From the NCBI GenBank assembly GCA_947568835.1, contig OX387611.1, forward strand, positions 1,058,001 through 1,122,000: a stretch of DNA of 64,000 nt, given 5' to 3'. Under the pieces are notes generated by a model. It was not told where the DNA came from and searched no databases. It saw nothing but the letters and a program-made list of their open reading frames with translations. Shown in pieces: positions 19,101 through 59,115 of the stretch (position 1 is the stretch's first letter; every line of letters begins with the position of its first letter). The position numbers were made by a program, and so were the translations under genes. The stretch comes from Protonemura montana. Taxonomy: Eukaryota > Arthropoda > Insecta > Plecoptera > Nemouridae.

Positions 19101-22100
19101 ATAATCGTTGCTTTGGATATTTTCAAGGATTTAAACTTTTGTTCTAATTTATCTAGTTTGATAAAGATATATAGATTCATAACTTTGGCCGTTGAGTGTA
19201 GGTTCTAGGTAGAGTTTCAACGTCAATGTTACAGTCTCTGCGTGAAAGATGGCCGCCAAATGACTACCTTACCGACAAAAATGCAGAGTACCGGAACGTC
19301 ACGTTAAGTGGAGCCACTGTCGTATGAAATTTAATTTCGATATTTCTCGTAGGTTACTCGCTTTTTAATATCGTTACGTGTTTATCAATCGTTGAGGTAA
19401 ACATTGATGGAGATCTTTTGAGCATGAAAAGTCTCAAAAGCGAGTTAACCTACGAGAAATATCGAAATTAAAATTCATACGACAGTGGCTCCACTTAACG
19501 TGATGTTCCGGTACTCTGCATTTTTGTCGGTAAGGTAGTCATTTGGCGGCCATCTTTCACCAGAGACTTTAACATTGACGTTGAAACTCTACCTAGAACC
19601 TACACTCAACGGTTTTACAGTCCTGGGATATTGGGCACATATTGATTTACGGGATGTGGCATGAGATTGACAGGTTATTAGAGTCATTCAAATTTTAGAA
19701 AAAAATTTAAAATTTAAAATTTTTTTTTAGAAATTTTAGCTAAAAACCTAAGAGTAAAAAATGGCGACAACAAAGCTCTGCAAAATTTTCATAATTTCTT
19801 CCACGGCGTAAGCCTTTGCGGTGCACTCTGAAGTCGAGCAGCAAAGCAAACCACTTAGTAGTTACTTATTACTTAAATTTACAATAAGTAAGCAAAACAA
19901 TAAAACATTCGGTTCACTCACGACATTCCTGATGCGGACTGATACCGGCTGAGTTGCACTGCCGAACGCGTTCTCCGCGTGACAAAAGTAGTCCCCCGCG
20001 TCCGCGTCTGCGATCCTGTCGATGGTCAACTGCATCGTGTATTTGGTGGGCTCGTCTCTGGCAGGCTGGACCTGGATGCTGTACTTCCCGCCCTGGATGA
20101 CGGGCACCCGACCGTTGTGATCTCTCCAGAACAACATCTTCGGCTCGGGGTGGGCGTCAACGCTGCATTCCAGGACCACGCGGTCACCGGGGCTTGCCAT
20201 TGTGATGCCCGAAGCGTGGATGGAAGGAACGTCTGTGTGCGGAGAAACTCTCAGTCAAATTGATGGTAAGGTTCGAAGATCATGAAATAGATGCCTGTGT
20301 TCTGTGACCCGGACAAAAACTAGCTCGAGTCTCAGTTACATAGCCTACTAAAATACTACTAAAATAACGTAAACTGCAGAAATAAGTGCAAACCAGGGAC
20401 TCTCAAGATAGCGGTCTTGGCTTCAAAGTCTGACTTTGACAACAACTATCCAGGTATTTTATTATTGTGAACACTACAACCGTCTCAAAAATTCGTCATT
20501 CTCATAAAGTACACTAAAATCGTCTCAAAAAGTATGTGTCCAAGTAGCTCGATTGGTTAGAGCGACACCCGCGACCGGTGGAGATCGGGGTCCAAGTTGC
20601 TCAATTAGTTAGAGCAACACCCGCGACAGGTGGAGATCGGGGTCCAAGTAGCTCAATTGGTTAGAGCAACACCCGCGACAGGTGGAGATTGGGGTCCAAG
20701 TAGCTCATTTGGTTAGAGTGACACCCGCGACAGGTGGAGATCGGGGTCCAAGTAGCTCAATTGGTTAGAGCAACACCCGCGACAGGTGGAGATCGGGGTC
20801 CAAGTAGCTCAATTGGTTAGAGCAACACCCGCGACAGGTGGAGATTGGGGTCCAAGTAGCTCAATTGGTTAGAGCAACACCCGCGACAGGTGGAGATCGG
20901 GGTCCAAGTAGCTCAATTAGTTAGACCAACACCCGCGATAGGTGGAGATCGGGGTTCGAGTCCCCGTTTGGGCATCAACTTTTGAGACGGTTATAGTGTT
21001 CATAATATATAAAAAAAAACAGTCATTGTAAGCGTTTGCAATTTAAATAAGATTTAAAACACAATCGAGGTGTTTTCAGATCAGTGCTTCTATATCTTGG
21101 TTCTCCAACTCACGGCTTATCGTGATCTTCCTCGACGCTTGCATGGGCGTCCCATATCCGTTGTCCGCGTAGCACGAGATCTGGTCCATGTCCCTCGTGA
21201 CGTTGTGCATGACTGTAACCATGTGTCGGGTCGTCTCTTGTCTCACCAGCCTCCCGGAGATGTACAGCGAGATGACGGGCATTGGCGTTCCCATGGCAAT
21301 GCACAGCACGGACATGCTGCTTCCTTCGACCACCATGTTGATAGGGTGCACCGTTGGGGGCTGTGGCCAAAACAAGGGGTGGGGTAAGCACTGGTTGTCT
21401 TGACAACAGACTCCTCGTCAGTTAGCGCTTTGGTTAGAAGGAAGGAGGAAAAAATCCGGTGCTGGCACGTAAGCGACTCCTGTCGAAGAGCACCTGCATT
21501 ACGTCCCATCCCAATGAAAGTAACAGAATCCCTTTGAAAATCCATATTGTCGAGAGGTTGATAAGCAAGGCGAGTAAAGTTGCTTTAAGAACATTAAGAA
21601 CTTCAGCTCCTCTCCCGAACAGAACTGGTCATGTGTATGATGGTCACCCATCCAATATCTGACCTAGCGCAGTATTGCCTAACTTTCATCCCTCCAACCT
21701 CTCTCCCGAACAGAACTGGGCATGTGTTTGATGGTCACCTATCCAATACCTGACCCAGCGTCGTGTTGCTTAACTTTCATCCTTCCAACCTCTCTCCCGA
21801 ACAGAACTGGGGATGTGTATGATGGTCACCCATACAATACCTGACCCAGCGCAGTGTTGCTTAACTTTCATCCCTCCAACCTCTCTCCCGAACAGAACTG
21901 GTAATGTGTATGATGGTTACCCCTTCAATACCTGACCTAGTGCAATGTTGCTTAACTTTCATCCCTCTAGCCTCTCTCCCGAACAGAACTGGTCATGTGT
22001 ATGATGGTTACCCCTTCAATACCTGACCCAGCGCAGTGTTGCTTAACTTTCATCCCTCCAACCTCTCTCCCGAACAGAACTGGTCATGTGTATGATGGTC

Positions 22101-25100
22101 ACCCATCCAATATCTGACCTAGTGCAATGTTGCTTAACTTTCATCCCTCCAGCCTCTCTCCCGAACAGAACTGGGCATGTTTATGATGGTCACCCATCCA
22201 ATTCCTGACTCAGCACAGTGTTGCTTAACTTTCATCCCTCCAGCCTCTCTCCCGAACAGAACTGGGCATGTATATGATGGTCACTCATCCAATACCCGAC
22301 CCAGCGCAGTGTTGCTTAACTTTCATCCCTCCAGCCTCTCTCCCGAACAGAACTGGGCATGTTTATGATGGTCACCCATCCAATTCCTGACTCAGCACAG
22401 TGTTGCTTAACTTTCATCCCTCCAGCCTCTCTCCCGAACAGAACTGAGCATGTGTATGATGGTCACCTATCCAATACCCGACCCAGCGCAGTGTTGCTTA
22501 ACTCACCTCTACAAATGCCGGGTACGCTGGGTCAGTCCACGCTATCAAGGTCTCTGATGGTGGACTTGCTCCCTGCTGGGAGATCGCCGTCACAAAGACG
22601 ATGTACTGCGTGTTGGGACTGAGCTTGTCGACCATATGTGACGTCACGCTGGTGTCGATGGAGTTGAACGCCTCCGTGGAGGTCGGCTTGAAGCTGAGTT
22701 TGTAGGTGAGTGGTTCGGCAGGGTGGCTGAACTCAGGAGGCTGCCAGGAGATCGTGACCCAGGTTGCTGAGTGGCTGGATACCACGAGGGAGTGGGGAGG
22801 TGTTGACACTCCAGCCAGACCCTCGCCTACATCTGGAATGAAGGTTTATAAAGTCCAGAGTAAGAAAAGTTACTTAAAACTTGATCTAAATTTACACAAA
22901 GATCACATTTTCACTTGATTCAAGCTTTTGTGGACGAAACACAATTAAAGGCTTTAGAAATGTTTGCAGATAACATTTGACTTAATTTCATGATGTTGCA
23001 TGTTCAATTACCACAAGACTTTTCAACACCGTGGACTGAAGTATGGTTGAAAGTCCAATAGAACTTCATTCGCCTTGCTTATCAACCTCTCGACAGCATA
23101 GATTTGTAGAGGAATCCTGTTGTTCGCGTTTATGCTTTGTTTATGTATAAAAATACAGATTGCTATACTGCATGACGCATGCACGGTTCAAATGGCGACC
23201 AATTTTAATGACAAGCCAATCACAAGCTAGTGGGAGTGTCAATTGGCGTGGCAATGGGCGTGTCCCTGAAACCAACCCGTGTGAGTGGCGTTGATGACGA
23301 GCTGTGATGACGGAAGTGACGTGCCATGTTGGTTCCGTGCTACGACAAACACGCGGTACACGTGACCTCCTTCCAGACCGTTTAGGATGGCCCTTGTAGA
23401 CGTGACATTCAGCTCCTGGGAACAAAGGACAAGTCAGTGGTGGAGGATTGAATAGTGGACTTCATCCAGCTTGGTGTCGAGGATGCTTCCTGGATTGGCA
23501 ACATTTTTACATAACTGTTCGACTCTGAAAACTGGTTTTACAAACAAAATGGAAATCTCGCTTTATTGGGGTGAAGGTATTTTACTAAATTTTGTTATAA
23601 TTCAAATTTGCTGCAATGCGCGGGGTATTTTATGCATGAGAACACAAATAATCGCTCAAAATTGTAAACGCAATCGTGGACTCGAACCTTAGGCGTTGCT
23701 GTAGCAATCTGTGACTTTCCCTTTAGGTAGGAAAATTAGTGTATTTGGCCATAATATCTTTAAAATCTTTTCAAAAAGGTCGTTGCAGATCTCAAATCTA
23801 GATTAACATTGGCGGATTCGAGTACCAAGGCCTATTGGGTACACATTTTTGACAGAGTAGCTGTGTAATTAAATACCCAGCAAATTGCTAAATAAGATTG
23901 TCCGAGTTGACCGTTCTTACCTGTGCCAGCTTGTATGTAGTCTCGTGCATGGACATGTTATCCATCTTCTGGTAGTAGACCACATAGTCGCTGAGATTTC
24001 CGTCGCTTGGAGCGTCCCATTCGAGGCTGATGCTGCTATTGGTCACGCTAGTGGCGTGCAGAGCGCCGATTGGCCCAGGCAGAAGTCCCGTGCCTGGCAG
24101 GGAACGAATGGGATGAAAACAAACTTGGAGCAGGAATTTAAATAACTGCAGCGCAAAGTGCTTTGCCAAATCAAACCAGGCAAGTAATTTCAAGATTGGG
24201 CCCGCAGTTTTCATAAAGGGTAAATAGTTAATCTGTGTTATATTTTTTTGGTTTCCTTTGCAGAGACCGAAACTGAATCGAATGTACCTAGTCCTCTTAA
24301 GTCAGGTTTTAAAAAATGTTTTAAACAGAGTTGGCGTTTCTGACAGAATCACCACAGCATGAGATTGGAAGTCGCCATAGCAACTTGTAAGATTTCGCTA
24401 ATCAGACACTGGAGGAACGATGTAAAGAGCCAGGATGAAAAAAATAATTGATTGAAAAAGATGTTATTCCGGCAAACCGGTAAAACACTCGTTAGACCGA
24501 TGTCAATTGACTCTCCTCGGGGTCGCAACCCTTCAGGATCGTCTACCTACCGGCCTCGGTGGAGGGACAGGTTACTAGCCTAAAAAAAGTGGTGAAAACT
24601 TTGCATACTGCCTTAGAGTTTTGAAAAACTGGTGAAAGATGGAGAAATAAGTAAAAGGAATTTGTAAAATTCGGTCCAAGAAAGCAGAAATTTACTTCAA
24701 ATTCAATCTCATTTCTAGCAACGATCCATGTTGAAGCATGTCAGCTGTCAGAATTAATTGATTTTGGCTGCGTTTTCAATTGTATCTTCTACCGAGGTCA
24801 TGCATTGAGATTTTATTCCTGATAGTAAGGGGTGGTGGTAGGTATGTGAGTTGGCAACACAGCCTAGATGGTCGAGTCGAGACTGGTTGAAATGTTGACA
24901 CCTGATAAGATGGACATGCATCGAAACATTACCACTGAGTATTTGCTCCCAGGATCGTACCTTCCTCGAAGCATTGAACAATGTTGCCGATGAATGGGAT
25001 GCACGAAGAGGCCGTGACGAGGAGCGAGTCACCGACCACGCCTACACAGAGGGGCAGGCAGTTTGTGGCCACGCCTCTGCGCGCGCAGCACTTGCCGTGG

Positions 25101-28100
25101 TTCCTCCCACCGGCACCACAGCGCATCAACTTGCTCAGCTCGGGTGCGCAGATGCTGCCCAACGCCTGTGGAAAAGACGATCTAAATCAGGGCTAAATCA
25201 CTCAGCTCAATTAATCCAGCCAGCTGATCTTAAATAACCTGGATAGAACATAGAATCCAGCCAGCTGATATCAAATAACCTGGATAGAGCATAGGATCCA
25301 GCCAGCTGATCTCAAATAACATGGATAGAGCATATGATCCAGCCAGCTGATCTCAAATAACATGGATAGAGCATAGGATCCAGGCAGCTGATCTCAAATA
25401 ACCTGGATAGAGCATAGGATCCAGACAGCTGATCTCAAATAGCCTGGATAGAGCATAGGATTCAGCCAGCTGATCTCAAATAACCTGGATAGAACATAGG
25501 ATCCAGCCAGCTGATCTCAAATAACCTGGATAGAGCATATGATCCAGCCAGCTGATCTCAAATAACCTGGATAGAGCATATGATCCAGCCAGCTGATCTC
25601 AAATAACCTGGATAGAGCATATGATCCAGCCAGCTGATCTCAAATAACCTGGATAGAGCATAGGATCCAGGCAGCTGATCTCAAATAACCTGGATATACC
25701 ATAGGATCCAGACAGCTGATCTCAAATAGCCTGGATAGAGCATATGATCCAGCCAGCTGATCTCAAATAACCTGGATAGAGCATAGGATCCAGGCAGCTG
25801 ATCTCAAATAACCTGGATAGCGCATAGGATCCAGACAGCTGATCTCAAATAGCCTGGATAAAGCATAGGATCCAGCCAGCTGATCAAAATTAGGGTCAAG
25901 TAATCTATTGTTGGCCTTAAATCCTGGAAGTCCCCATTATTTCCAAGCTGCTTTAGTTTTTGAAGCACTTTTTGACCAAGTTTTGACCGTTGCTCTGTTC
26001 TACGAAAACCACAAAAACTACTAATAAAAAAAATTTAAAATAGCACAGGTTCTTGGGAGCGGATCAGGAATTTCCAAGATGGTTGCCTTGGCTTCAAAGT
26101 CTCTTCATTGATTAATGTGATTCATTGATAGAGTGTCGAAGGTCCAGGGAACGCCAAGACAGAGGGTCGTACCTTGATGTCGTTCATGGAGGCGTCATAA
26201 GAACACAGAGGCAGGCAAACGTCACTGAGCCTGGCCGACACACAGCATGACGTCACATTGTATGCGTTGGCCTCCTCGATCTGATCCTGGACCAGCTGAA
26301 AGCACGAGGACAAGCGAAGTCAGTTAAAAAGGTCATCATAGCCTAACAATGCCTTGTAACCTCGTAGCAAGTTATCAGTCAGGGGCATTGTTATTAGAGC
26401 GGTCATTTGGCGGTGCTACCACGGTGCTACATAATACAACCGGTGGTATTATATAACCCCGACCTAGAGCGGTCATTTGGCAGTGCTACCATGGTGCTAC
26501 ATAATACAACCGGTGGTATTATATAACCCCGACCTAGAGCGGTCATTTGACGGTGCTACCATGGTGCTACATTATACGACCGGTGGTATTATATAACCCC
26601 GACCTAGAGCGGTCATTTGACGGTGCTACCATGGTGCCACATAATACAACCGGTGGTATTATATAACCTCGACCTAGAGCGGTCATTTGGCGGTGCTACC
26701 ACGGTGCTACATAATACGACCGGTGGTATTATATAACGCCGACCTAGAGCGGTCATTTGACGGTGCTACCATGGAGCTACATAATACGACCGGTGGTATT
26801 ATATAACGCCGACCTAGAGCGGTCATTTGGCGGTGCTACCACGGTGCTACATAATACGACCGGTGGTATTATATAACCCCGACCTAGAGCGGTCATTTGG
26901 CGGTGCTACCATGGAGCTACATAATACGACCGGTGGTATTATATAACCCCGACCTAGAGCGGTCATTTGGCAGTGCTACCATGGTGCTACACTATACGAC
27001 CGGTGGTATTAAATAACCCCGACCTAGAGCGGTCATTTGCCGGTGCTACCATGGTGCTAAATGATACGACCGGTGTAACAGAATATTCGTACTGCCATAA
27101 TATTATTACCCCCAGTAATCTCAGTTCATAATATGATTACTGGCCAGTAAACAAGAATTGTAATGAGATTACTGGCTGAGAAAACCTAGCGTTTGAGAAC
27201 ATATTATTTGTACTGTACCAGTAAAACAAAAACAGTGAAATAATATTACTCCCAAAACAAAAGCATCACCTGCAGGGTACAGGGTGTCTTAAAGCAAATG
27301 CAGGGGAGTAATCTGATAATAGCCTGAAGGTATAATGCTATTACTCCCCAACATAATGAAATGTGAACTTACCTGTGCATTTTGATGCAATCGAACTAGA
27401 TGCACTACAGGGTGTGTACAAAACAATGCAGGGGAGTAATCTGATAATAGCCTGAAGGTATAATGCTATTACTCCCCAACATAATGAAATGTGAACTTAC
27501 ACGCTAAAAAATTTGGAGTGAAAATTTCACTCCTTGAATGAGTGGCGTCTAATTTGACACTTGAAAGAGTGGTTTTCTGTAATATTGACTCCCAAATGTG
27601 TTGTTTTCCCACTCTTTGACAAGGAGTGCACAGAATTAGCTCTTTGGAATGAGTGCAGGGTATCGGGTACTTATTAAAGGAAGCGGTTAACTCCGGATTG
27701 AGGCTGGAGCAGTGGCTGGAGCTTACGTGAGAAATGCTGAATCTACATTTCGACAGTCATTCAACTATTATGAGAGTGTGACTCATATCTTACTACCCAG
27801 CGAACTGTCGATTCGGAGCATTTTTAATTTTCATTCAGTAGCTACCTCGGTCTTGAAGTGAAGTGATCAGTGCGTGTCGCAACTCGCCATGGAGACAGAA
27901 TGTGTTATGAATTTGGACTTGGAAGGTCTTCGACTTTTTCTAATCAAAAAAGGAATTCCGGAAGAATTGGCAAATGCTTTCAAAGGTAATAGAACATTAT
28001 GATCAAACTTTGAATTGCACACGAGGTACTTGGATTTTTATAGGTAAATTTCAACGCTTGCTTTACAGGTAACTCTGATGCAGTTTACTAAACCAGATGA

Positions 28101-31100
28101 ATCGACAAAAGGTGAAATCCAAGATCTTATGGACGATACATTTGAAATGAGGAGGAAAGAAATAAACGAGAATTCGCCTTCCATAACTGACATCATTGGG
28201 AAGTACCCTAGGCTGATCGACTTTGATGGTAACCAGGTACGCTGCACGCATTATACTTTTAGACAGCAAACTCTTTGATAAAACGTTCTTATAATCCTTG
28301 CAGTCCAATCATTTCCTACTTGTTTCAGGTAAATCGCGAATTCAACCGAATGGAAGAGAGCAAGTCAACAAACTTTTTATCGAAGTTCCGAAAAAGCTGT
28401 ACTTCTCGGATACTGAAGTATTGCGAACAATTCAAACCCAAGTCCTTCAATATGTCAAAAAAAAATAGCAAATGGTAAGCATAACACCACAAGTTTTATG
28501 ATTTCGATTATTACCTATCGCGAATCGCGATAGGTAATAAGAATATTAATAATTTCCACTGGTAATTTGACATTTGCAGATGATCTTCGAGCAATTTTGC
28601 TTCTGGCGACTCTGCTGCCAGCATGCAACGCCAGCAAGAAAAAACTTCTGGCGACGCAGCACTTGAAAAGGGAACTGCGATCCCCAACGACTCTCCTTTG
28701 CGGTTTGTTGAGGTATGTTTAGTTTGACTGTTTCCACTTTCGCTATAAAATGATGCTCTTCAAAATTGTGGCTTCATAAATTGTAATAGATAATGGCGTG
28801 TCTACACTGTATGATTTTGTAAAAATCCTGACAATTTTCCCAAACCCATTAGTTTATTAAATTAAAGTCATCACTAAATAGGATATTGTGAAAAAAATTA
28901 AATAAGTCACTGTAAATAAAGCTTGAAGTATCTTCTCCATGATAAGATATGTCATGCACCTCACACCTGTCCAGCAACGTCACACTGATTACAAGATTGA
29001 CTATTAAAACAAGCTCTAATTTAATGTCGATACTTTCAGGCAGGGGCAGACATTACCGCCTTCGTCAAGGCGAGCACGCAAGGGGGAGAGGTCCAACCGT
29101 TCCTCCTGTGTGTTGGCAGCCTGGAGGAGGGAGGCGATTACTTTATCGTCGCGGATAGATTTCATGTCGCAGTCGGCAAGTGCCCAGTAAGGGCTTTTGA
29201 CTTGTTGTTTAAAACGTTCTATGTTTTTAATGTAGCATACCCATCGAACTTGATACGTTTCTACAATTTTGTCGAAACTCGCCTGTATGTAATGAATGTT
29301 AAGTCAAGCAACCTTGCGGCTACAGCAGGGCTAGACGCGTCCCTGTTGAACGTTCAAATTGATTAAAATTTATGACAATATGACAATATAAAATTTATGA
29401 GAACATTAGTATTGCTACCCAGATCGCTTGGAATTTGAAATATGCTAGGAGTTATGACTAAAGTATTAAACTATTTAAGATAAGTATATCACACAAAAAG
29501 AGTTTAAATAAATTCAATAAATTTGTTTACTTAAATGAGAATTTCTCTGACCTTGAGAACATTCAAAGAATTGTTTAATTTGTGTTAAAATTGTAATTTA
29601 ATCGATGGCGATCTGTTCTCTCTGATTTTTGTCTCTTCACTTCTAATTTCATTATAGAGAGTTGGTTTTATGTCTGCATTTTGAACTCTACTTCCAGTTG
29701 TACTTGCTATACTTAATGATGAATCGGTTAATTTCTCTTGAAATTGCAATTTAATCGTGGCGATCTGCATTCTCTAATTTTTGTCTCTTGACCTCTAATT
29801 TCAGTTATAGAGAGTTCATTGTGGAATTTAAAAAATTCAATACATCATTTCACCCATTTTTTCTGCTTAAAATTCAATTTTTATTTCTGTTTTCAATAAA
29901 ATATTTTTATGATCTGAAATTAATTCGTTGTAATATTTCCACCTTCAAAAAGTACAGCTTGATAGACCTTGCCCATGACAAAAATAAAAATGTCACGTAA
30001 GGAGTAAAATGTACGATCATGCGATGCACTTGCAATGCAGCAATGCATGCACACGAGCATCTAGCGAAAAATAATAAACAACTTCAGGTGACAGGTCCAT
30101 CAAGGCGTACGAAATTATCCTTTTTACAGGATTCCAATGAATTCTTTCACTCACTCGTTTTGGAGCATTGCAATCCCAGGAAATTTTCGAATATTTCGAA
30201 ACTAGAGTCGAAATTTTTGACTCGTTAAAGGAGTGAAATAAAATGTCTCTTTCGAGAGAATGACTTCCACTCATTATGGAGAGGGCACATTTTGTCGTTT
30301 TAAAAGAGTGGAAATGATCCTTTCATTGAGTCAAAATATTTCACTCAATGAAAGAGTGAAATGAGATGACTCATTCGAAAGAGCGAGTTCCACTCCCAAG
30401 GGAGAGGGCACATTTTGTCGTTTTAAAAGAGTGAGAATGATCCTTTCATGGAGTCCAAATATTTCACTCAATGAAAGAGTGAAATGAGATGACTCATTCG
30501 AAAGAGCGAGTTCCACTCCCAAAGGAGAGGGCACATTTTGTCGTATTAAAAGAGTGAGAATTGACTCTTTTGGAGTGGTTTTTGACTCCAATTTTTTTAG
30601 CGTGTACCTGTGCATTTTGATGCAATCGAACTAGATGCACTACAGGGTGTGTACAAAGCAAATGCAGGGGAGTAATCTGATAATAGCCTGAAGGTATAAT
30701 GCTATTACTCCCCAACATAATGAAATGTGAACTTACCTGTGCATTTTGATGCAATCGAACTAGATGCACTACAGGGTGTGTACAAAACAATGCAGGGGAG
30801 TAATCTGATAATAGCCTGAAGGTATAATGCTATTACTCCCCAACATAATGAAATGTGAACTTACCTGTGCATTTTGATGCAATCGAACTAGATGCACTAC
30901 AGGGTGTGTACAAAGCAAATGCAGGGGAGTAATCTGATAATAGCCTGAAGGTATAATGCTATTACTCCCCAACATTATGAAATGTGAACTTACCTGTGCA
31001 TTTTGATGCAATCGAACTACATGCACTACAGGGTGTGTACAAAACAATGCAGGGGAGTAATCTGATAATAGCCTGAAGGTATAATGCTATTACTCCCCAA

Positions 31101-34100
31101 CATTATGAAATGTGAACTTACCTGTGCATTTTGATGCAATCGAACTAGATGCACTACAGGGTGTGTACAAAACAATGCAGAGGAGTAATCTGATAATAGC
31201 CTGAAGGTATAATGCTGTTACTCCCCAACATTATGAAATGTGAATTAACCTGTGCATTTTGATGCAATCGAACTAGATGCACTACAGGGTGTGTACAAAA
31301 CAATGCAGGGGAGTAATCTGATAATAGCCTGAAGGTATAATGCTATTACTCCCCAACATAATGAAATGTGAATTAACCTGTGCATTTTGATGCAATCGAA
31401 CTAGATGCACTACAGGGTGTGTACAAATCTAATTACAAATCTATTACAAATGCACAGGTAAGTTCACATTTCATTATGTTGGGGAGTAATAGCATTATAC
31501 CTTCAGGCTATTATCAGATTACTCCCCTGCATTGTTTTGTACACACCCTGTAGTGCATCTAGTTCGATTGCATCAAAATGCACAGGTAAGTTCACATTTC
31601 ATTATGTTGGCAAGGGGTGTTGTTGCATTTCTATCGAAAGGTATGGGGCGTATTCCATATGAAGTCCCCACAGCAAGTAGCCTGGCAAATTTTTAAGCTA
31701 AACAGTACGCTAATCCCTGCAATGTGTTTGGTCACCCTGTGATTTGATTGATGTGATTTATTTGTGCATAGTCAGTAATACTATTATAGTGATGTTTTGA
31801 AATTTTTTATTACTGTATATGTAATAATATGTATTATTTTTACTGGGCCAGTAATCTCAAATCGTCTTTAGTTTACTGGTACAGTAATCTCAAAACGTTT
31901 CTAGTTTACTGGTACAGTAATCGTAGATCATATTGAGTTTACTGGCCAGTAAAACTAGCATATGCTGTGTTTACTGGGGGGTAATGTTAGTGGACAGTAT
32001 AAATATTATGCGACACCGGTATTAAATAAGCGGTGATCTGTTAACTTGGCATAACTGGCTCCTGACCGCTCTAGGTCGGGGTCACTGCTTGGTGCTATGG
32101 TGGTGCTAGTTAGCACGGTGCTACTGACAGTAATACCAGGGTCACTGCTTGGTGCTATGGTGGTGCTAGTTAGCACGGTGCTACTGACAGTAATACCAGG
32201 GTCACTGCTTGGTGCTATGGTGGTGCTAGTTAGCACGGTGCTACTGACAGTAATACCACACTCTAAATAAACATGAGTGAAATGTTCACTCTTTGAAAGA
32301 GTCACGTCTTTTTTGACTCATTCATGAGTGAATTTCAGTTTTATTGACTCTTTGGAGAGTTGTTATTCCACTCATTTAGAAAGAGTGAGCAGATTTAGCT
32401 CTTTATATGAGTGGCAGAGATCGTTGAATCATTAACAAGGGCGATAATAACTCACAAAAAAGTGAATTAGCGGACAAATGCAGATAGATTATTTCTTGCT
32501 TATGCGACCAAATTCGTTGACAAAGATAATATCTGTACTAAAACACATGGGAAATACAGGCGTCAGCAACCTCGCTCTGGACGACTCTCTCACTTTCTGT
32601 GTTTTGGGTTAGCGCGTTCGAGTATTCATGAATCACAACGCGCGACAGTGTCTTCCAGTGAACGTATTTGTCCGTTACGCGGTGCGGTATGTGAGTCCAC
32701 CCACTATCGGTGTTCCTCTGCGAAGTCATGGGTGATGTTGAAAAGTTTGACATCGAGACCTTGCGTGTGTATTTAGTGGCGAATGGAGTCTCCGAGACGT
32801 TGGCAGACGCTATCAAAGGTAAGCCCTATTTTTCTTACTAAAATTATAAAACCAGTGGCATAATAGAGGCTTATTAGTTAATTGTACTGAAATGAAATGT
32901 ATGCCAAATGATCAGTTTCGTCACTATTCACTACCAAACACGGCCAAAATAATTCAATCTTGCACCACAGTCCACACATTTATTTGTTATTATGCAGAAA
33001 ATGCATGAGTTATAGGTCAAAAGAAAGTTTTTTATGAGGTTTTTATACGATTCTTTTTTTTATAATAAAGCATTCAAAACAATCAGACTGTTCGAATGTC
33101 AACGAATATCGACGGCAAGAGAGCGCAGTGATAGAGCTAATTGTTTTCCATTTGTCCCTAACAGTGAGGACGGCAGCAGTGCCTCAACTGAAAGATCACC
33201 GACAGCTGTTTCTATCAAAAGCTTGGTGCAATTCGTTGAGGTATGTACACCGCATCATTTTAAAAGTCCACGACCTGAAGGATCTCCGTCAAAATCGTCT
33301 CTAATCTGACTGCAATGTATTCTTTCAGGTACAGACAGACAGGGATAGACATCGGGCATCTCGTCAAAACGAGGATCCAGAGCAATTTGCAGCCATCTCT
33401 CGTCTACGTCGGGCCACCAGGCAGCGAAAACTGCAGTTATTTTATCATTGCTGATATGCACTGCATTCCAGTCAGGACTTCATCAGTTAAGGCCTTTGAC
33501 ACACTATTCAAAACCTTTTTTGTCTTAAGTGTCACTTACCCATCTTAACTAAGTCGTTTTTATAATTTCATTGAAGCACAAATCTATGACATGGATATTA
33601 AGTCCCTTCTGGCAATGGACGGATTGCATGCCTCACTCATTAATTTGGATATTGCAGAGAAGATGGACTAGATTTTAATATTATTAACACTATAACCGTC
33701 TAAAAAATTGATGCCCAAACCGGGACTCGAACCCTGATCTTCACCTATCACATAGATGGAGTTCGGGGTTCGAGTTCCCGTTTGGGCATCAATTTTTGAG
33801 ACGGTTTTAGTGTTGATAATAATAAAATACCCCGCGCATTGCAAGCGTTTGCAATTTCAATACGATTTCATCTATGGACTAGATTGTATTATTTAACAAT
33901 ATTCAGCATTGTCTGAAATCTGCAATCTCTGATATATTTATCTGAAAAAACAAATAACTGAATTAAATTTATTGAGATGATATATTCTTGTGCTGACCTG
34001 CACCAATAGGATCAAATAATTGCATCCTCCAAGTGGTACTAGATAAGCCAACCCAAGTGGCCGGCAATATTAATATCTTTGCTAGATAATGATTATTTGT

Positions 34101-37100
34101 ATTTCAACAATAAAAAAACATGTTTTTTTAAATAATTATTTCCAGTATATTCAATATTTAATATGAAGATCCCCATACCTCAATGGAGTGAAAATCACTC
34201 TTCCTAGTGTCACTTCCTTTCAATCGTCGAAATGACTATTCCCATACCACGAAGGAGTGAAAATCACTCTTTCTAGTGTCAGTATATTTGACTCTTTGAA
34301 AGAGTGATTTAAGTTCTTACTTTCAAAGGAGTGAATTTGACTCACATTGTGGTGGATAGCTTTTCTACTCCGAAAGAGTGAAAAAATGACTCTTTTGGAG
34401 TGGAATTTGACTCATGTTATTTTAGCGTGCAGGGTCACTGCTTGGTGCTATGGTGGTGCTAGTTAGCACGGTGCTACTGACAGTAATACCAGGGTCACTG
34501 CTTGGTGCTATGGTGGTGCTAGTTAGCACGGTGCTGCTGACAGTAATACCAGGGTCACTGCTTGGTGCTATGGTGGTGCTAGTTAGCACGGTGCTACTGA
34601 CAGTAATACCAGGGTCACTGCTTGGTGCTATGGTGGTGCTAGTTAGCACGGTGCTACTGACAGTAATACCAGGGTCACTGCTTGGTGCTATGGTGGTGCT
34701 AGTTAGCACGGTGCTACTGACAGTAATACCAGGGTCACTGCTTGGTGCTATGGTGGTGCTAGTTAGCACGGTGCTACTGACAGTAATACCAGGGTCACTG
34801 CTTGGTGCTATGGTGGTGCTAGTTAGCACGGTGCTACTGACAGTAATACCAGGGTCACTGCTTGGTGCTATGGTGGTGCTAGTTAGCACGGTGCTACTGA
34901 CAGTAATACCAGGGTCACTGCTTGGTGCTATGGAGGTGCTAGTTAGCACGGTGCTACTGACAGTAATACCAGGGTCACTGCTTGGTGCTATGGTGGTGCT
35001 AGTTAGCACGGTGCTACTGACAGTAATACCAGGGTCACTGCTTGGTGCTATGGTGGTGCTAGTTAGCACGGTGCTACTGACAGTAATACCAGGGTCACTG
35101 CTTGGTGCTATGGTGGTGCTAGTTAGCACGGTGCTACTGACAGTAATACCAGGGTCACTGCTTGGTGCTATGGTGGTGCTAGTTAGCACGGTGCTACTGA
35201 CAGTAACACCAGGGTCACTGCTTGGTGCTATGGTGGTGCTAGTTAGCACGGTGCTGCAGACAGAAATACCAGGGTCACTGCTTGGTGCTATGGTGGTGCT
35301 AGTTAGCACGGTGCTACTGACAGTAATACCAGGGTCACTGCTTGGTGCTATGGTGGTGCTAGTTAGCACGGTGCTACTGACAGTAATACCAGGGTCACTG
35401 CTTGGTGCTATGGTGGTGCTAGTTAGCACGGTGCTACTGACAGTAATACCAGGGTCACTGCTTGGTGCTATGGTGGTGCTAGTTAGCACGGTGCTACTGA
35501 CAGTAATACCAGGGTCACTGCTTGGTGCTATGGTGGTGCTAGTTAGCACGGTGCTACTGACAGTAATACCAGGGTCACTGCTTGGTGCTATGGTGGTGCT
35601 AGTTAGCACGGTGCTACTGACAGTAATACCAGGGTCACTGCTTGGTGCTATGGAGGTGCTAGTTAGCACGGTGCTACTGACAGTAATACCAGGGTCACTG
35701 CTTGGTGCTATGGTGGTGCTAGTTAGCACGGTGCTACTGACAGTAATACCAGGGTCACTGCTTGGTGCTATGGTGGTGCTAGTTAGCACGGTGCTACTGA
35801 CAGTAATACCAGGGTCACTGCTTGGTGCTATGGTGGTGCTAGTTAGCACGGTGCTACTGACAGTAATACCAGGGTCACTGCTTGGTGCTATGGTGGTGCT
35901 AGTTAGCACGGTGCTACTGACAGTAACACCAGGGTCACTGCTTGGTGCTATGGTGGTGCTAGTTAGCACGGTGCTGCAGACAGAAATACCAGGGTCACTG
36001 CTTGGTGCTATGGTGGTGCTAGTTAGCACGGTGCTACTGACAGTAATACCAGGGTCACTGCTTGGTGCTATGGTGGTGCTAGTTAGCACGGTGCTACTGA
36101 CAGTAATACCAGGGTCACTGCTTGGTGCTATGGTGGTGCTAGTTAGCACGGTGCTACTGACAGTAATACCAGGGTCACTGCTTGGTGCTATGGTGGTGCT
36201 AGTTAGCACGGTGCTACTGACAGTAATACCAGGGTCACTGCTTGGTGCTATGGTGGTGCTAGTTAGCACGGTGCTACTGACAGTAATACCAGGGTCACTG
36301 CTTGGTGCTATGGTGGTGCTAGTTAGCACGGTGCTACTGACAGTAATACCAGGGTCACTGCTTGGTGCTATGGTGGTGCTAGTTAGCACGGTGCTACTGA
36401 CAGTAATACCAGGGTCACTGCTTGGTGCTATGGTGGTGCTAGTTAGCACGGTGCTACTGACAGTAATACCAGGGTCACTGCTTGGTGCTATGGTGGTGCT
36501 AGTTAGCACGGTGCTACTGACAGTAATACCAGGGTCACTGCTTGGTGCTATGGTGGTGCTAGTTAGCACGGTGCTACTGACAGTAATACCAGGGTCACTG
36601 CTTGGTACTATGGTGGTGCTAGATAGCACTGTGCTACTGACAGTAATACCAGGGTCACTGCTTGGTACTATGGTGGTGCTAGTTAGCACGGTGCTACTGA
36701 CAGTAAGACAAGGGTAACGAATCACCGCTCTAGGTCGGGGTCACTGCTTGGTGCTATGGTGGTGCTACCGACCTTGCTTGCTGTTCTGAAGATTGCTCTG
36801 GCCGATGGCTCGCCGACTCCATGTTGGTTGACTGCCTCGACGTAGACCTCGTAATTGCTGTCGCTGTCGAGGCGTTCTAGCACGAAGGGTGGGGAGACTT
36901 TTGGTACGCCTCGGTAGTCGTTGGCCAGCGCTGCCAGCGCCCGGTAGTGCAGGTTGTAGTATTGGACCGTGTCGCCTGCAAGATCAGCCACCAGGAGTCA
37001 GCACTGTCAGTTCAGAGCAATGAAGAATTGACCTCAAACCGTGAAAGAGTGGATAAACTCCCTACGCATTTTTTTTAGCCAAATTACTACCGAACGGTTT

Positions 37101-40100
37101 AGCGTGTTGGAAACAGCGGTTCTCGTCAGATCACCGAAGTTAATCAACACTGCGCTGGGTCATGTTTTGGATGGGTGACCACCGATCTTACCAAGTGTCT
37201 TCGGGGCCTCCCAGTGAACGATTGCGAAGTCAACGTCAACGTTTGAGACTCTGATGCCGAGAGGACTGCTTGGAAGCACTCCGTAGCCTTGCAGGAGACA
37301 GCTGGAGTAGTCTGATATATACTTCAGGCATCTGCAAAGAGAGCAGCGTTAAACCTGGAGCTACGTAAGTAATCTAGCCACTAGCAAGTAGCCTGAAGCC
37401 ATGGAGGGATGAAAGTTAGGCAACACTGCGCTGGGTCAGGTATTAGATGGGTGACCATTATACATATGACTAGTTCTGTTCGGGAGAGAGGTTGGAGGGA
37501 TGAAAGTTAGGCAACACTGCGCTGGGTCAGGTATTAGATGGGTGACCATTATACATATGACTAGTTCTGTTCGGGAGAGAGGTTGGAGGGATGAAAGTTA
37601 ATAGCCACTAGCCAGTAGCCAGTAGCCAGTAGCAAAGAAACGTGAGCTGCTTGCTCTTTTTCTGTCGTTATAACTCACTTGAAGTAGCTGAAGTCGATCT
37701 GTGTGACGTTCCCCGAGCAGAAGTCCTGACAGATGACGGGCAGACCACGTGCTCGACAACATGGCGTGTGGTCCACGTTGTTTGAGAGACAACTGAAGGT
37801 AGCCTTCGCCCACGGAGCACAGATCATCAGGTCAGTGACCCCAGCCACGTCGGCAAGTCGCGGGTCACACAGCTTATCCACGCAACTAACAAACAAGGGA
37901 TGAACTCGAGTTAAGCAACACTGCGCTGGGTCAGGTATTGATTGGGTGACCACCATATACATGACCAGTTCTGTTCGGTAGAGAGGTTAGAGGGATGAAA
38001 GTTAAGCAACACTGCGCTGAGTCAGGTATTGGATGGGTGACCATCATACACATGACCAGTTCTGTTCGGGAGAGAGGTTGGAGGCATGAAAGTTAGTACA
38101 GCAACTTCACTTGCCTTGCTTATCAACCTCTCGACAGCATGGATTTGTGGAGGAATCCTGTTGTTCGCGTTGTACCGTCCTTCGGAAGGTACGTTAATCC
38201 AGTGCTCCCCTTGATCTTCGGCTGTTGTAGAAACCTGGCACCAGTTTTCCACTCATTCTATCTAGGCTAAGTTAGATTTATCATGCAATCATTCACTGAC
38301 GCCATAAGATCAGTGCTAGATGGCTCTGTGTCAAAACAATGCGTCGTTAAACCCATAAAACCACATAAAAACTCACCTGCCGTGCGTGATGTTGTTCTTC
38401 AGGCAACAACCTCTAACATCTGGCAACGCTGGAGCCTCGGCAACTGTGGTGGCCTTGACCTTGCCAGGGGTCAAGGTCATAGTTCTGATTGAGTACGAGG
38501 GTAGCGACGAACCGCGAGCGTTGTGTGCCGTGACTGTCACCTCGTACATAGTGAAGGCCTTCAAGTCCACGGCCAGTGCGTGACGAGATCCTGGTGGCGC
38601 CTGCCAAGTAAAAAAAACACAATCATTTAGTATTTTTGTAGTCTTTTGGAGATGTACAGCAAAAAATACTTTAAAAGGTTATTCTGTCAAAATGACTTTA
38701 TGTCGCATGGTGAACGCTTGCAATGCGCCTTTATTTTCTTATTTGAAACACTAATCACCTCTCAAGAACTCGAATACAAACGGGGACTTATACCCCGTCG
38801 CGGGTGTTGCTCTAACCAATTGAGCTACTTGGACCCCGATCTCCACCTGTCGCGGGTGTTGCTCTAACCAATTGAGCTACTTGGACCCCGATCTCCATCT
38901 GTCGCGGGTGTTGCTCTAACCAATTGAGCTACTTGGACCCCGATCTCCACCTGTCGCGGGTGTTGCTCTAAACAACTAAGCTACTTGGACCCCGATCTCC
39001 ACCTGTCGCGGGTGTTGCTCTAAACAACTTAGCTACTTGGACCCCGATCTCCACCTGTCGCGGGTGTTGCTCTAACTAATTGAGCTACTTGGACCCCGAT
39101 CTCCACCTGTCGCAGGTGTTGCTCTAACCAATTAAGCTACTTGGACCCTGATCTCCACCTGTCGCGGGTGTTGCTCTAACCAATTGAGCTACTAGGACCC
39201 CGATCTCCACCTGTCGCGGGTGTTGCTCTAACCAATTGAGCTACTTAGACCCCGATCTCCACCTGTCGTGGGTGTTGCTCTAACCAATTGAGCTTCTTGG
39301 ACCCCGATCTCCACCTGTCGCGGGTGTTGCTCTAACCAATTTAGCTACTAGGACCCCGATCTCCACCTGTCGCGGGTGTTGCTCTAACCAATTGAGCTAC
39401 TTGGACCCCGATCTCCACCTGTCGTAGGTGTTGCTCTAACCAATTAAGCTACTTGGACCCCGATCTCCACCTGTCGCGGGTGTTGCTCTAACCAATTGAG
39501 TTACTTGGACCCCGATCTCCACCTGTCGTGGGTGTTGCTCTAACCAATTGAGCTACTTGGACCCCGATCTCCACCTGTCGTAGGTGTTGCTCTAACCAAT
39601 TGAGCTACTTGGACCCCGATCTCCACCTGTCGTAGGTGTTGCTCTAACCAATTCAGCTACTTGGACCCCGATCTTCACCCTTCGCGGGTGTTGCTCTTAC
39701 CAATTGAGCTACTTGAACCCCGATCTCCACCTGTCGCGGGTGTTTCTCTTACCAATTGAGCTACTTGAACCCCGATCTCCACCTGTCGCGGGTGTTGCTC
39801 TAACCAATTGAGCTACTTGAACCCCGATCTCCACCTGTCGCGGGTGTTGCTCTAACCAATTGAGCTACTTGGACCCTGATCTCCACCTGTCGCGGGTGTT
39901 TCTCTTACCAATTGAGCTACTTGGACCCCGATCTCCACCTGTCGCGGGTGTTGCTCTAACCAATTGAGCTACTTGGACCCCGATCTCCACCTGTCACGGG
40001 TGTTGCTCTTACCAATCGAGCTAATTGAACATACCATTTGTAGAGAGGATTTTAGTGCATTTGATTATCCATTTGTCGAGAGGATTTTAGTGCATTTGAT

Positions 40101-43100
40101 TATCTTATAAGTGTTCTTATAAAAAATAATTTACTTATTGCAATTTACATCAGAATTCACAGCATGAACGTGTAATTGGATATACTGGAAATGAACGACG
40201 TTGTACTCAGATGCAGTGTTAAACGAAGACATAGGACCCCTACAAACCCCAAAGAAAAACAAAATCATTTTTTTCCCTAAATCCACTTTAAAAAATTACA
40301 ATAAAGGCGATAAAACCAAATTTAATGACCTGAAATTTACCTTGATTTTCATGACTACCTGCTGAACGACCGACGCCTGCGTACTCGATGGTATCCTCTC
40401 GCTGCGCGCTTCCTGCGCAGCGGCTGCGTAGCTGTCCAATGGCTGCGCAGGCGCCTCATCGTCCTGATCGAACGAGCGGAGTGACGTCACGTTCACGATA
40501 AACTCGGTGACAGTGTCCTGGTTTCCCGTGGGAGGTCGCCACGAGACGTTGAGAGAAGTCTCTGTCAACGCCTCAACCTCAACTCCCTCTGGCGGGCTGG
40601 GTAGAAGCTCTGGGGATGCAAACAGAGGACTTAAGTGATGACGTTTTAAGACCAATTAGAGACAAAAGTGGACAAAAAACACATATTTAAACGTTCTGTT
40701 TGGCGACACCATGAACCGGACGGTTTAACGAGTTAAAAACATCGGTTCTCGTTAGATCACCGAAGTTAAGCAACATTGCGCTGGGTCAAGTATTGGTTGG
40801 GTGACCTTCATACACATGACCAGTTCTGTTCGGGAGAGAGGTTAGAGGGATGAAAGTTAAGCAACACTGCGCTGGGTCAGGTATTGGATGGGTGACCATC
40901 ATACACATGACCAGTTCTGTTCGGGAGAGAGGTTGGAGGGATGAAAGTTAAGCAACACTGCGCTGGGTCAGGTATTGGGTGGGTGACCATCATACACATG
41001 ACCAGTTCTGTTCGGGAGAGAGGTTGGAGGGATGAAAGTTAAGCAACACTGCGCTGGGTCAGGTATTGGATGGGTGACCATCATACACATGACCAGTTCT
41101 GTTCGGGAGAGAGGTTGGAGGGATGAAAGTTAAGCAACACTGCGCTGGGTCAGGTATTGGATGGTTGACCATCATACACATGACCAGTTCTGTTCGGGAG
41201 AGAGGTTGGAGGGATGAAAGTTAAGCAACACTGCGCTGGGTCAAGTATTGGATGGGTGACCATCATACACATGACCAGTTCTGTTCGGGAGAGAGGTTGG
41301 AGGGATGAAAGTTAGTACAGCAACTTCACTCGCCTTGCTTATCAACCTCTCGACAGCATGGATTTGTGGAGGAATCCTGTTGTTCGCGTTGTACCGTCCT
41401 TCGGATGGGGCGCTAAACCGGTGGTCCCCTTGGTCTTCGACACACCGGGCTAGCCTTCCTCCCTTCTAAGCTCGGCTAGGGCCATCATTATTTACTCACC
41501 CACCGACGCCATTAGACCACTGTCACGTGACTTTGTCACTTAACAGAGCTGGGTTAAAGCCCACTAACTTACCGACGCCCTCTGCGATGCAGGCCAGTGT
41601 CTGCTCCGTGTAAGCCGAGCAAGAGAAGTGAGTTTTGATGTTGTCTGTGATCATCGTGTACTCGCCACGGCATACGTCTTGACAGATGTCTGGCACGCCC
41701 TCTTGGATGCAGCACGGAACGTGGTTTCGCCCATCTGGGCCGGATAAAGGGGCGGTTTAGTCGTGGAAGGGGCGTGGTATTGTTGTGATGGGGGCGTGTT
41801 TAGGTGAAGTTTAGGGGCAACTTATGACAATTTGTGAGAAAATTAGGGCTTGGTCAGTAAAATAAAGGATTCCCTAGCGATTTCTGAACAATGTTTGCTT
41901 ACAGATGAAATCTTATTTAAATTGCTCGCATGTACACACGTTCATAATAATAAACTGTTTGCATTCGAGCCTGACCAGAGTTTGTATCTTCGAAGCGTCA
42001 CCGCGGCTTAACTTATGATTTAGGGTAAAGTGCCGTAATTGTTACGTTCACTGCGTCTATTGTGTAAACAAAACATGAGCACTGGACGTCACTATTACCT
42101 AACTCTAGCCTGAATCTTGGGCACCGTGCCACTAAAGCTGAACATGTAGAATTCAAGAATATTGTAGTAAAAAGGTTTAATTTTGTTTAAAAAAAAATGC
42201 CCTTTTTTTGATTTAAGACTCCATTTGCCAAAATCAACTCAAAAATGCAGGCTTTTAGCTCAGTTTAATGCAGTGCACTGACTTGTAACAGCAAGAAAAG
42301 TATAATTCTTTGTCTGTCTGCATTATTTTTTTTTCAGGTAACGCTGCAAAATTTGTTTGAGTTTTTAATTTTTTTTTTCGTAAATATTTGATTAGAAGGC
42401 CGAAAAAATACAATAACCATTCCCTGCTTTTCCGTAAAGGATAAGTGGAAGTTTTGATTGTTTTTAGACTCATGTCTACTTGATGTAAACTTAGGACTAG
42501 TTTTGACAAAAACTATTTCAACTGGGTTTTGAATGCTAAGTAAAGAACAACTGAATTTCCCAAAGTTTCGTAACTTTCCCTTGATAAAGTAACAGGTACA
42601 AGTTATGAAACGTTGGGAAATTTAGTTGTTCTTCACTTAGCATTCAAAACTTACCTCAACTAGTTTTTATCATAAATGGAAGTAGTTGATTAGATCTGTG
42701 TTTTAGATATGTACGTGTGACTGAACTTACCGGCCATGCACCTGACAATCGCCGGGAAATCAGCTTCACATTGCTCGGGATCCTGACCAGTGCTACCCTC
42801 TAGAATACTCTGGATGTTACAGAACCCAAAGCACGACGACGACACGTTGCTTGCCACGCAGCAGTCCGTGTAGTTGTGGTTGGCGCCACTAGATGGCGTC
42901 GGTCTTGACGTCGGAGTGAACGAACCAGTGGCGTTGACAGATGGCGGCAGCAGTGATCGAGACAAAACGCTGAGTTTGTGGAGAGATTGGAGGGGAGGCG
43001 TTGTGTTCACTTCACACACGTACACGCCCGAGTCGGAGGGGAGGGCGTCGTGGATGACCAGCACCCATACGTCGCCACCTAAGTGGAAAGAAGAGGCGTT

Positions 43101-54039: not shown

Positions 54040-54515
54040 CGAACAGGAAGTTAAGCAACACTGCGCTGGGTCAGGTATTGGATGGGTGACCATCATACAC
54101 ATGACCAGTTGTGTTCGGGAGAGAGGTTGAAGGGATGAAAGTTAAGCAACACTGCGCTAGGTCAGGTATTGGATGGGTGACCATCATACACATGACCAGT
54201 TCTGTTCGGGAGAGAGGTTAGAGGGATGAAAGTTAGTACAGCAACTTCACTCGCCTTGCTTATCAACCTCTCGACTGCATGGATTTGTGGAGGAATCCTG
54301 TTGTTCGCTTTGTACCGTCCTTCGGAAGGGACGTTAAGCCGGTGGTCCCCTTGGTCTTCGACAAGAGTACGCTTTGTGCCAGCACCGGGTTTTCTATCCC
54401 CCCTTCAAGGCTATGTTTGGTTCATCATCATCCACTCATTCACCGACGCCATTAGACCAGTGCCGCATGGCCAGTTGACAAAACAGTGCGTCGTTAAACA
54501 CCAATAATCAATAAA
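54040..54515 (+). mobile_element. 5S-headed SINE, two units plus full body and tail
   Basis: Two 91-bp units, then GTACAGCAACTTCACTCGCC, CCGTCCTTCGGAAGGGACGT, TTCGACAAGAGTACGCTTTG, CCGACGCCATTAGACCAGTG and GCGTCGTTAAACACCAATAA. Most complete body-and-tail copy in the window. Confidence 0.88.
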
Positions 54516-57392: not shown

Positions 57393-59115
57393 GGATGAAA
57401 GTTAAGCAACACTGCGCTGGGTCAGGTATTGGATGGGTGACCATCATACACATGACCAGTTCTGTTCGGGAGAGAGGTTGGAGGGATGAAAGTTAAGCAA
57501 CACAGCGCCGGGTTCTGGTATTGGTTGGGTGACCATCATACACATGACCAGTTCTGTTCGGGAGAGAGGTTGGAGGGATGAAAGTTAAGCAACACTGCGC
57601 TGGGTCAGGTATTGGATGGGTGACCATCATACACATGACAAGTTCTGTTCGGGAGAGAGGTTGGAGGGATGAAGGTTAAGCAACACTGCGCTGGGTCAGG
57701 TATTGGATGGGTGACCATCATACACATGACCAGTTCTGTTCGGGAGAGAGGTTGGAGGGATGAAAGTTAAGCAACACTGCGCTGGATCAGGTATTGGATG
57801 GGTGACCATCATACACATGACCAGTTCTGTTCGGGAGAGAGGTTGGAGGGATGAAAGTTAAGCAACACAGCGCCGGGTTCTGGTATTGGTTGGGTGACCA
57901 TCATACACATGACCAGTTCTGTTCGGGAGAGAGGTTGGAGGGATGAAAGTTAAGCAACACTGCGCTGGGTCAGGTATTGGATGGGTGACCATCATACACA
58001 TGACCAGTTCTGTTCGGGAGAGAGGTTGGAGGGATGAAAGTTAAGCAACACTGCGCTGGATCAGGTATTGGATGGGTGACCATCATACACATGACCAGTT
58101 CTGTTCGGGAGAGAGGTTGGAGGGATGAAAGTTAAGCAACACTGCGCTGGATCAGGTATTGGATGGGTGACCATCATACACATGACCAGTTCTGTTCGGG
58201 AGAGAGGTTGGAGGGATGAAAGTTAAGCAACACTGCGCTGGATCAGGTATTGGATGGGTGACCATCATACACATGACCAGTTCTGTTCGGGAGAGAGGTT
58301 GGAGGGATGAAAGTTAAGCAACACTGCGCTGGGTCAGGTATTGGATGGGTGACCATCATACACGTGATCAGTTCTGTTCGGGAGAGAGGTTGGAGAGATG
58401 AAAGTTAAGCAACACTGCGCTGAGTCAGGTTTTCGATGGGTGACCATCGTACACATGACCAGTTCTGTTCGGAAGAGAGGTGGAGGGATGAAAGTTAAGC
58501 AACACTGCGCTGGGTCAGGTATTGGATGGGTGACCGTCATACACATGACCAGTTCTGTTCGGAAGAGAGGTGGAGGGATGAAAGTTTAGCAACACTGCGC
58601 TGGGTCAGGTATTGGATGGGTGACCATCATACACATGACCAGTTCTGTTCGGAAGAGAGGTGGAGGGATGAAAGTTAAGCAACACTGCGCTGGGTCAGGT
58701 ATTGGATGGGTGACCGTCATACACATGACCAGTTCTGTTCGGGAGAGAGGTTGGAGGGATGAAAGTTAAGCAACACTGCGCTGGGTCAGGTATTGGATGG
58801 GTGACCATCATTCACATGACCAGTTCTGTTCGGGAGAGAGGTTGGAGGGATGAAAGTTAGTACAGCAACTTCACTCGCCTTGCATATCAACCTCTCGACA
58901 GCATGGATTTGTGGAGGAATCCTGCTTTTTGAGTTGTACCATCCTTTGGAAGGGAGGTTAAGCCGGTGGTCCCCTTGGTCATCAACAGGAGTAGGCTACG
59001 TACCGGCACCAAGTTACCCTCCTCACTTCTAGGCTAGGTTTGGTTAATTATCACCCTTATTAACATCGACGTCATCACTCCACATATCCCGTTGTCAAAA
59101 CAGTGCGTTCTTTAA
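57393..59115 (+). mobile_element. 5S-headed SINE with about 16 internal 91-bp units
   Basis: Array 57393-58855 of GAAAGTTAAGCAACACTGCG, CAGGTATTGGATGGGTGACC, ATGACCAGTTCTGTTCGGGA. The SINE body follows at 58856-59115 with a diverged tail (CGTTGTCAAAACAGTGCGTT). The variant CACAGCGCCGGGTTCTGG recurs 365 bp apart (57501, 57866), a four-unit block copy. Confidence 0.9.

Follow-up and report, generated by a model that had tools for sequence, protein, structure and literature searches.

Two transposons with matching ends lie 1654 bp apart in the window (the whole 64,000-nucleotide stretch of Protonemura montana DNA that was analysed, C14:1058001-1122000), and each encloses exons of one and the same gene, which bears the provisional label SAMD3-like and is referred to below as the SAM gene, after the putative SAM domain whose first part lies in its exon A. 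An earlier note on this DNA had offered two readings of such a gene inside a transposon: capture from the host as cargo, or a place in the element's own biology. The layout of the gene around a transposase at related loci makes the second the better of the two.

Element 1 has the termini CACGCTAAAAAAT...TTTTTTTAGCGTG and element 2 the termini CACTCTAAATAAA...TTATTTTAGCGTG; both start with CAC(G/T)CTAAA (CACKCTAAA) and terminate in TTTAGCGTG (Table 1). Element 1 interrupts an array of 128-bp units and element 2 one of 60-bp units. When the flanks are joined with one copy of the duplication removed, the resulting 60 bp recur in the window with no more than 3 mismatches, at 5 places (3 without any mismatch) for element 1 and at 32 for element 2. 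Both insertions are exact, since the flanks rejoin into unbroken array units that are present elsewhere in the window. The short motif GAGTG/CACTC is concentrated at the ends: of its 21 occurrences in element 1, 19 lie in the left 250 bp or right 450 bp, as do 15 of the 16 that element 2 has (7 on the left and 8 on the right), far above base shuffles (means 0.3-0.6, maxima 2-4), while the middles of the elements have no excess over such shuffles. No transposase was detected in the window by tblastn with transposase pieces of relatives. Thus the matching ends some 1.7 kb apart, the shared subterminal repeats, the precise insertion into two tandem arrays and the non-autonomous state of both copies, all claimed in the earlier note, hold. 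At 33697-33875 of the window, in element 2, there is also a palindrome in which tRNA-like words can be read by eye, and after it a 43-45 bp piece common to many genome places; this is probably a small repeat that was inserted before element 2 spread.

Exons A, D (in part) and E are common to the two elements and stand in identical order; B and C occur only in element 1. Exon A measures 97 nt in element 1 and 91 nt in element 2, both 1 mod 3, so that its end phase is the same. The A-to-B splice of element 1 is out of frame and meets a stop after six residues, because exons between A and B have been deleted. The length of an A run in exon C deviates in one of eight element-1 copies, and in exon E the eight copies L001-L008 have G runs of 5, 10, 11, 11, 13, 12, 12 and 9 bases, respectively, which means that only some of them keep the frame there. 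One TAA interrupts exon E in each of 14 element-2 copies. The assembled window exons have no match in Pfam. In the window copies the gene is a remnant: the elements are internal-deletion derivatives that have lost the transposase and the SAM exon, and their frames are broken. What had been proposed of one gene with the same exon order and phases therefore stands for the order of A, D (in part) and E and for the phase of exon A, but not for an intact gene. Element 2 multiplied with its gene already broken; the gene is thus not needed in cis.

Table 1. Positions in the window of the two elements, their target-site duplications, subterminal zones and SAM gene exons
Feature	Position	Strand	Remarks
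Element 1	27500..30604	+	non-autonomous transposon of CACTA-like type, 3105 bp; termini CACGCTAAA...TTTAGCGTG; at least 12 two-ended genome copies
Element 2	32259..34429	+	2171-bp non-autonomous relative of element 1; internal deletion differs
Target-site duplication TA, left of element 1	27498..27499	.	repeated at 30605-30606; joined flanks fit array units
Target-site duplication CA, left of element 2	32257..32258	.	repeated at 34430-34431
Left end and subterminal repeat zone, element 1	27500..27749	+	7 GAGTG/CACTC
Right subterminal repeat zone and right end, element 1	30155..30604	+	12 GAGTG/CACTC; contains 123-bp tandem units
Exon A, element 1	27889..27985	+	first part of putative SAM domain; phase 1 end
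Exon B, element 1	28069..28236	+	phase 0; not in frame when spliced to exon A; donor read by eye
Exon C, element 1	28329..28474	+	146 nt; end out of phase with exon D; boundaries by eye
Exon D, element 1	28580..28712	+	boundaries by eye
Exon E (last), element 1	29040..29366	+	G run of copy-dependent length
Exon A, element 2	32728..32818	+	phase 1 end
Exon D, 3' part, element 2	33165..33240	+	deletion breakpoint in or just before; start approximate
Exon E, element 2	33329..33671	+	internal TAA at 33546-33548

Copies of the two elements in the genome

The genome searched comprises 258 Mb in 34 contigs, and the searches score the best candidates only, so that all genome-wide counts are lower bounds. 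Element 1 is represented by 11 pairs of perfect ends and by one further two-ended copy at C4:91861 (L054), and exon E is present in all 12 (in part in the copy on C1); element 2 is represented by 14 pairs of perfect ends, again with exon E in every one. The gene does move with the element, as had been proposed. Among eight full copies of element 1, six differ mutually by 0-7 substitutions, one on C15 differs from those six by 17-20, and the window copy differs from the six by 20-23 and from the C15 copy by 34. Twelve element-2 copies, including that in the window, are of equal length, and each of the 11 others shows 0-2 substitutions in 2171 bases when compared with the window copy (two copies that are 2 bp longer were excluded from this count), from which it follows that element 2 moved very recently. 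Its flanks are distinct in all 14 copies, each with a 2-bp duplication (12 TA, 1 AA, 1 CA); the element-1 duplications are TA in the 11 copies read of 12. Two shorter (1.5 kb) two-ended copies in C14 have common flanks and so look like one insertion that was later duplicated. With ends kept, the transposase gone and near-identical copies dispersed in the genome, the elements are non-autonomous deletion derivatives; they would have been moved in trans by the proteins of a full element, which may act on them through the ends and subterminal repeats that they keep.

The end patterns match at 39 + 39 places and a reversed control pattern at 19 + 16; since the control also matches often, many single end matches are due to chance, but the pairs are not. 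Left ends that have diverged lie at C4:1.03-1.18 Mb, at C14:6.72 Mb and, in fragmentary form, at C12:14.74 Mb; at C1:13.64 Mb a left end of 132 bp stands alone. Diverged right ends are found at C3:4.05 Mb, and at a distance of 104-110 bp from them a further exon of the SAM gene is weakly matched (E 0.012-0.014). Element-1 copies on C1 (5.2 kb) and C13 (5.1 kb) were considered as autonomous candidates and rejected, being the same element with insertions of ~2 kb; in these copies (L055 and L056) the insertions lie at different points, with 4- and 5-bp overlaps of element sequence at the junctions, and are nested younger elements.

The SAM gene and the transposase at related loci

A transposase accompanies the SAM gene at several related loci. 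On the minus strand of C2 (locus L050), a match to the left end and exon A (28207104-28206573, 88% identity to the left 642 bp of element 2) is followed by the transposase (28203221-28201035) and, starting 99 bp past its stop on the same strand, by the SAM exon GEEVDDGKYFLALTEEDLKNDFHAEVGPRKQIMALIK; after it come at least three exons that are absent from the window and then B, C, D and E (E at 28198228-28198013). An end piece (1-103) lies 7.5 kb away from the exon A match, at 28214576-28214678, presumably with an insertion between. On the plus strand of C16, the left-end/exon A match (29337092-29337738, 90% identity to the same 642 bp) is followed by transposase pieces (29347588-29349141), the SAM exon (29350927) and later exons to 29351777. 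On C5 (L057) the SAM exon lies 142 bp downstream of the transposase. The order exon A, transposase, SAM exon on C2 and C16 places the transposase within the first intron of the SAM gene; judged by identity and position, both loci appear to carry the transposase open reading frame (ORF) within the first intron of the second gene. Exon A was placed here by the DNA match to the left end of element 2, beyond L048, L049, L050 and L057; a direct scan of those four loci for exon A was unusable (best score 35, maximum 34 in 20 shuffles).

The clade to which this transposase belongs (>60% identity) has members at five independent loci, namely C2, C5, C11 (a duplicated locus with two copies), C16:23.75 Mb and C16:29.35 Mb. 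SAM gene exons lie downstream at four of them, and none was detected downstream at C16:23.75 Mb. On C11 the downstream exon is E, and one of the two copies has three further exons of such a gene ~6 kb on. Genome exon searches found neither exon B nor exon E downstream of the transposase at C16:29.35 Mb, and this copy is therefore incomplete. A second transposase clade (~30% identity) occurs at 19 places, 17 of them with one score, mostly as open frames of 702-706 aa; it is likely to mark a recently active transposon (G000 C14:2359599-2361278 and 18 other places).

Exon A, ending in phase 1, and the SAM exon of L050 read through as one SAM-like domain; the exon joins were made in this analysis and run across element lineages. 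Exon A of sister copies, joined to the L057 exon, matches Pfam SAM_2 with 22.3 bits against a cut-off of 20.5, and the join with the L050 exon finds its nearest solved structure in the SAM domain of ANKS4B (Protein Data Bank, PDB; E 0.0029). None of the 29 places that a genome search with SAM_2 gave is near a transposase locus, to judge by coordinates, and the search is uninformative because split transposon SAM exons are missed.

Comparison of element 1 with L050 gives 59% amino-acid identity in exon E (from FIVAD on), 61% in exon B and 54% in exon C, with synonymous differences (pS) of 0.90, 0.98 and 1.02 and non-synonymous differences (pN) of 0.26, 0.26 and 0.31, respectively; synonymous sites being saturated, no dS is given for element 1. 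For exon E of element 2, L050 and L048 the ratio of non-synonymous to synonymous change (dN/dS) is 0.17-0.27. These counts cover a small number of codons (35-76 per exon), with stops skipped. The transposase has a dN/dS of 0.40 between L048 and L050 and of 0.15 between the second part of L057 and L050; the first part of L057 differs from L050 with pS 0.81 and pN 0.17. The pattern indicates past purifying selection on the SAM gene between element lineages, where it was kept for function much as the transposase was.

With a probability of about 0.82, we read the window elements as internal-deletion derivatives of an animal CACTA-like (CMC-type) transposon that has a transposase and a SAM-domain equivalent of the plant protein TnpA in overlapping units. 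The full element would have the first exon of the SAM gene near its left end and the transposase gene within the first intron. One promoter at the left end, together with alternative splicing, might then provide either the SAM protein (exon A to SAM exon) or the transposase. By analogy with plant TnpA, the SAM protein might bind or bridge the subterminal GAGTG/CACTC repeats, perhaps by way of SAM-driven oligomerisation.

The notion that a CACTA-like element once took up a host SAMD3-like gene, which its copies have carried since as an unused passenger, has the appeal of precedent, capture of host genes by DNA transposons being well known; the spread of the broken window copies also speaks for it, as does the lack of such a gene downstream of one second-clade transposase copy. 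It is nevertheless unlikely. The genome search with exon E gave 33 rows at E <= 0.01, two of which are overlapping readings of one copy, and all 32 places are element copies or adjoin a related transposase, so that no host copy is seen; exon A and the SAM exon have the transposase between them; and element 1 and the L050 lineage are saturated at synonymous sites with few non-synonymous changes, which is not expected of a passenger. Hence cargo taken from the host, the first option of the earlier note, is not supported. An ancient capture followed by recruitment is possible, and is compatible with the gene's belonging to the element's own biology.

It is far less probable still that the SAM gene belongs to another repeat altogether, brought next to the transposase by nested insertion or chance. 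The loci are indeed rich in nested repeats (LINE, hAT-like and Harbinger-like ORFs in L048-L051, read by eye). However, strand and order are constant on C2, C5 and C16, with only ~100 bp (C2) and 142 bp (C5) between transposase and SAM exon, and exon A of the SAM gene, with a matching splice phase, belongs to the element ends themselves.

Against the gene's moving with the element speak gene-less solo left ends and fragments (C1:13.64 Mb, C12:14.74 Mb) and the locus C14:6721748-6725177, where the two ends are present (86-97% and 95% identity) and exon E has no match; it may be without the gene or without the exon E part. Copies with the element's ends that never hold the gene were the counter-case raised in the earlier note; exon E is present in all 26 full-length two-ended copies, with this one locus on the other side. 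Several observations weigh against derivation from a transposon with transposase and SAM gene in overlapping units. No copy that combines element-1-type ends with a transposase was found in the genome. The distance from exon A to the transposase is 3.4 kb on C2 and 9.8 kb on C16 (to the first piece found), nested insertions being likely, so that the layout comes from coordinates rather than from a single unbroken element; stops occur in the transposase pieces on C16. The 5.5 kb downstream of one second-clade copy hold no SAM gene, which suggests that this gene may be a feature of one lineage rather than universal. Joined to the L050 exon, exon A of element 1 scores below the Pfam cut-offs (SAM_1 22.1 against 23, SAM_2 17.8 against 20.5), as does exon A of element 2 (SAM_1 17.7 against 23). 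Finally, Pfam Transposase_21 does not match the transposase of L050, L057 (two pieces) or L048, the sole Pfam match of the transposase is to DUF1258 (E 0.01, below cut-off), and its profile showed no significant similarity to that of the protein in this genome which bears Transposase_21.

Other repeats in the window

Units resembling 5S rRNA lie at 37089-37206 and 40715-40835 (Rfam RF00001) and are followed or overlapped by tandem arrays of 91 bp; such arrays (21610-22503, 37402-38095, 40763-41314, 54048-54235 and 57393-58859) contain by eye the 3' part of 5S rRNA, and in the remaining ones nothing matches 5S at the gathering score. The 91-bp array may be a 5S-derived SINE turned satellite. 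Units resembling tRNA (17721-17793, 17909-17981 and 20902-20974; Rfam RF00005, with ARAGORN finding 2 of the 3) are overlapped or adjoined by 52-bp arrays; these (17669-17771, 20538-20955, 38797-40027, 46293-50269 and 63187-64000) show tRNA promoter words by eye, and the longest has ~77 units.

Classification and comparison with known systems

The ends begin with CACGC or CACTC instead of the CACTA of plant CACTA (En/Spm) elements, and the duplication is of 2 bp instead of 3 in all 25 full-length copies read (11 of 12 of element 1, 14 of 14 of element 2) and in the 2 shorter flank-sharing copies. Elements of the CMCT clade (EnSpm-Mirage-Chapaev-Transib and allies) are described as having CA..TG ends, duplications of 2-5 bp and, after the second D and before the last E of the transposase, the motifs C(2)C and H(3-4)H (PMC12730594). 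CA..TG ends and 2-bp duplications are what is found here, and the L050 transposase has, at the level of motifs, CADG, CRMC (C-x2-C), HHIEH (H-x3-H) and RYE in the CMCT order, with the same motifs in the two L057 pieces. On the sequence evidence, the element probably works like En/Spm and falls within CMCT, and it is no proven member of CACTA.

A PDB sequence search with the transposase gave one unrelated match (E 0.19), and no relatives were found in the genome-contig and viral-contig collections. A protein bearing Transposase_21 (PF02992) was tried as a partner and rejected: it occurs at 5 genome places of equal score, and the 9.9 kb covered at 4 of these 5 hold no CACNCTAAA ends. These places (L044 3424-5550, minus strand, and 4 others) represent a different, perhaps also recent, CACTA-type element.

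A cut-and-paste element of some group other than CMC, with TA-rich 2-bp target sites and a CAC start by chance, would account for the missing Transposase_21 match and for the near preference for TA (25 of 27 duplications, with 1 AA and 1 CA, two of the TA belonging to one duplicated insertion). Tc1/mariner elements insert strictly at TA. The CA and AA duplications speak against strict insertion at TA, and the motif order CADG...C-x2-C...H-x3-H...RYE is that given for the CMCT clade, together with CA..TG ends and 2-5 bp duplications (PMC12730594); membership of another group is accordingly improbable.

A SAM-domain protein with an En/Spm-like arrangement of gene around transposase is a concrete candidate for a TnpA equivalent, and the closeness of the element-2 copies to that in the window (no more than 0.1% difference) indicates that the system was active recently. 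Many animal SAMD3-like genes have been annotated, with a SAM domain at the N-terminus and a later region that may resemble that of the SAM gene. If the reading proposed here is true, some animal SAM-domain 'gene families' in annotations may be transposon genes, and the SAM gene of a transposon would be a possible source for the domestication of host SAMD3-type genes. The broader proposition that animal CACTA-type transposons own a TnpA equivalent in the form of a SAM-domain, SAMD3-like protein arranged around the transposase, from which animal SAMD3-like genes, perhaps SAMD3 itself, descend, is tentative and rather doubtful. No description of a SAM gene inside a transposon was found in the open-access literature, as represented by titles, starts of abstracts and some passages.

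The closest parallel in layout is maize En/Spm. There the transcript of tnpA is made up of 11 exons, and that of tnpD includes in addition the large ORF from intron 1; the subterminal repeats are recognised by TnpA, both proteins are required, and deletion derivatives can be moved in trans (PMC2613891). The present element shares with it the CAC..GTG inverted ends, the short subterminal repeats, two proteins, a transposase ORF in intron 1 of a multi-exon second gene, and deletion derivatives (PMC2613891). It departs from En/Spm in its CACGC/CACTC ends, its 2-bp duplications and the putative SAM domain of its second protein, and the two are likened by layout, not by TnpA sequence. SmTRC1 of Schistosoma mansoni, a CACTA transposon, is like the present element in coming from an animal, and it is alternatively spliced, with short products that lack the transposase part; unlike the present element it carries Transposase_21, and the accessible part of its description mentions no SAM domain (PMC1636069). 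ESTA and other fungal CMCT elements resemble it in being EnSpm-like, in their TA duplications and in carrying an additional gene (TET/JBP) (PMC12730594); they differ in being fungal and in the nature of the extra gene, and the likeness is one of description only.

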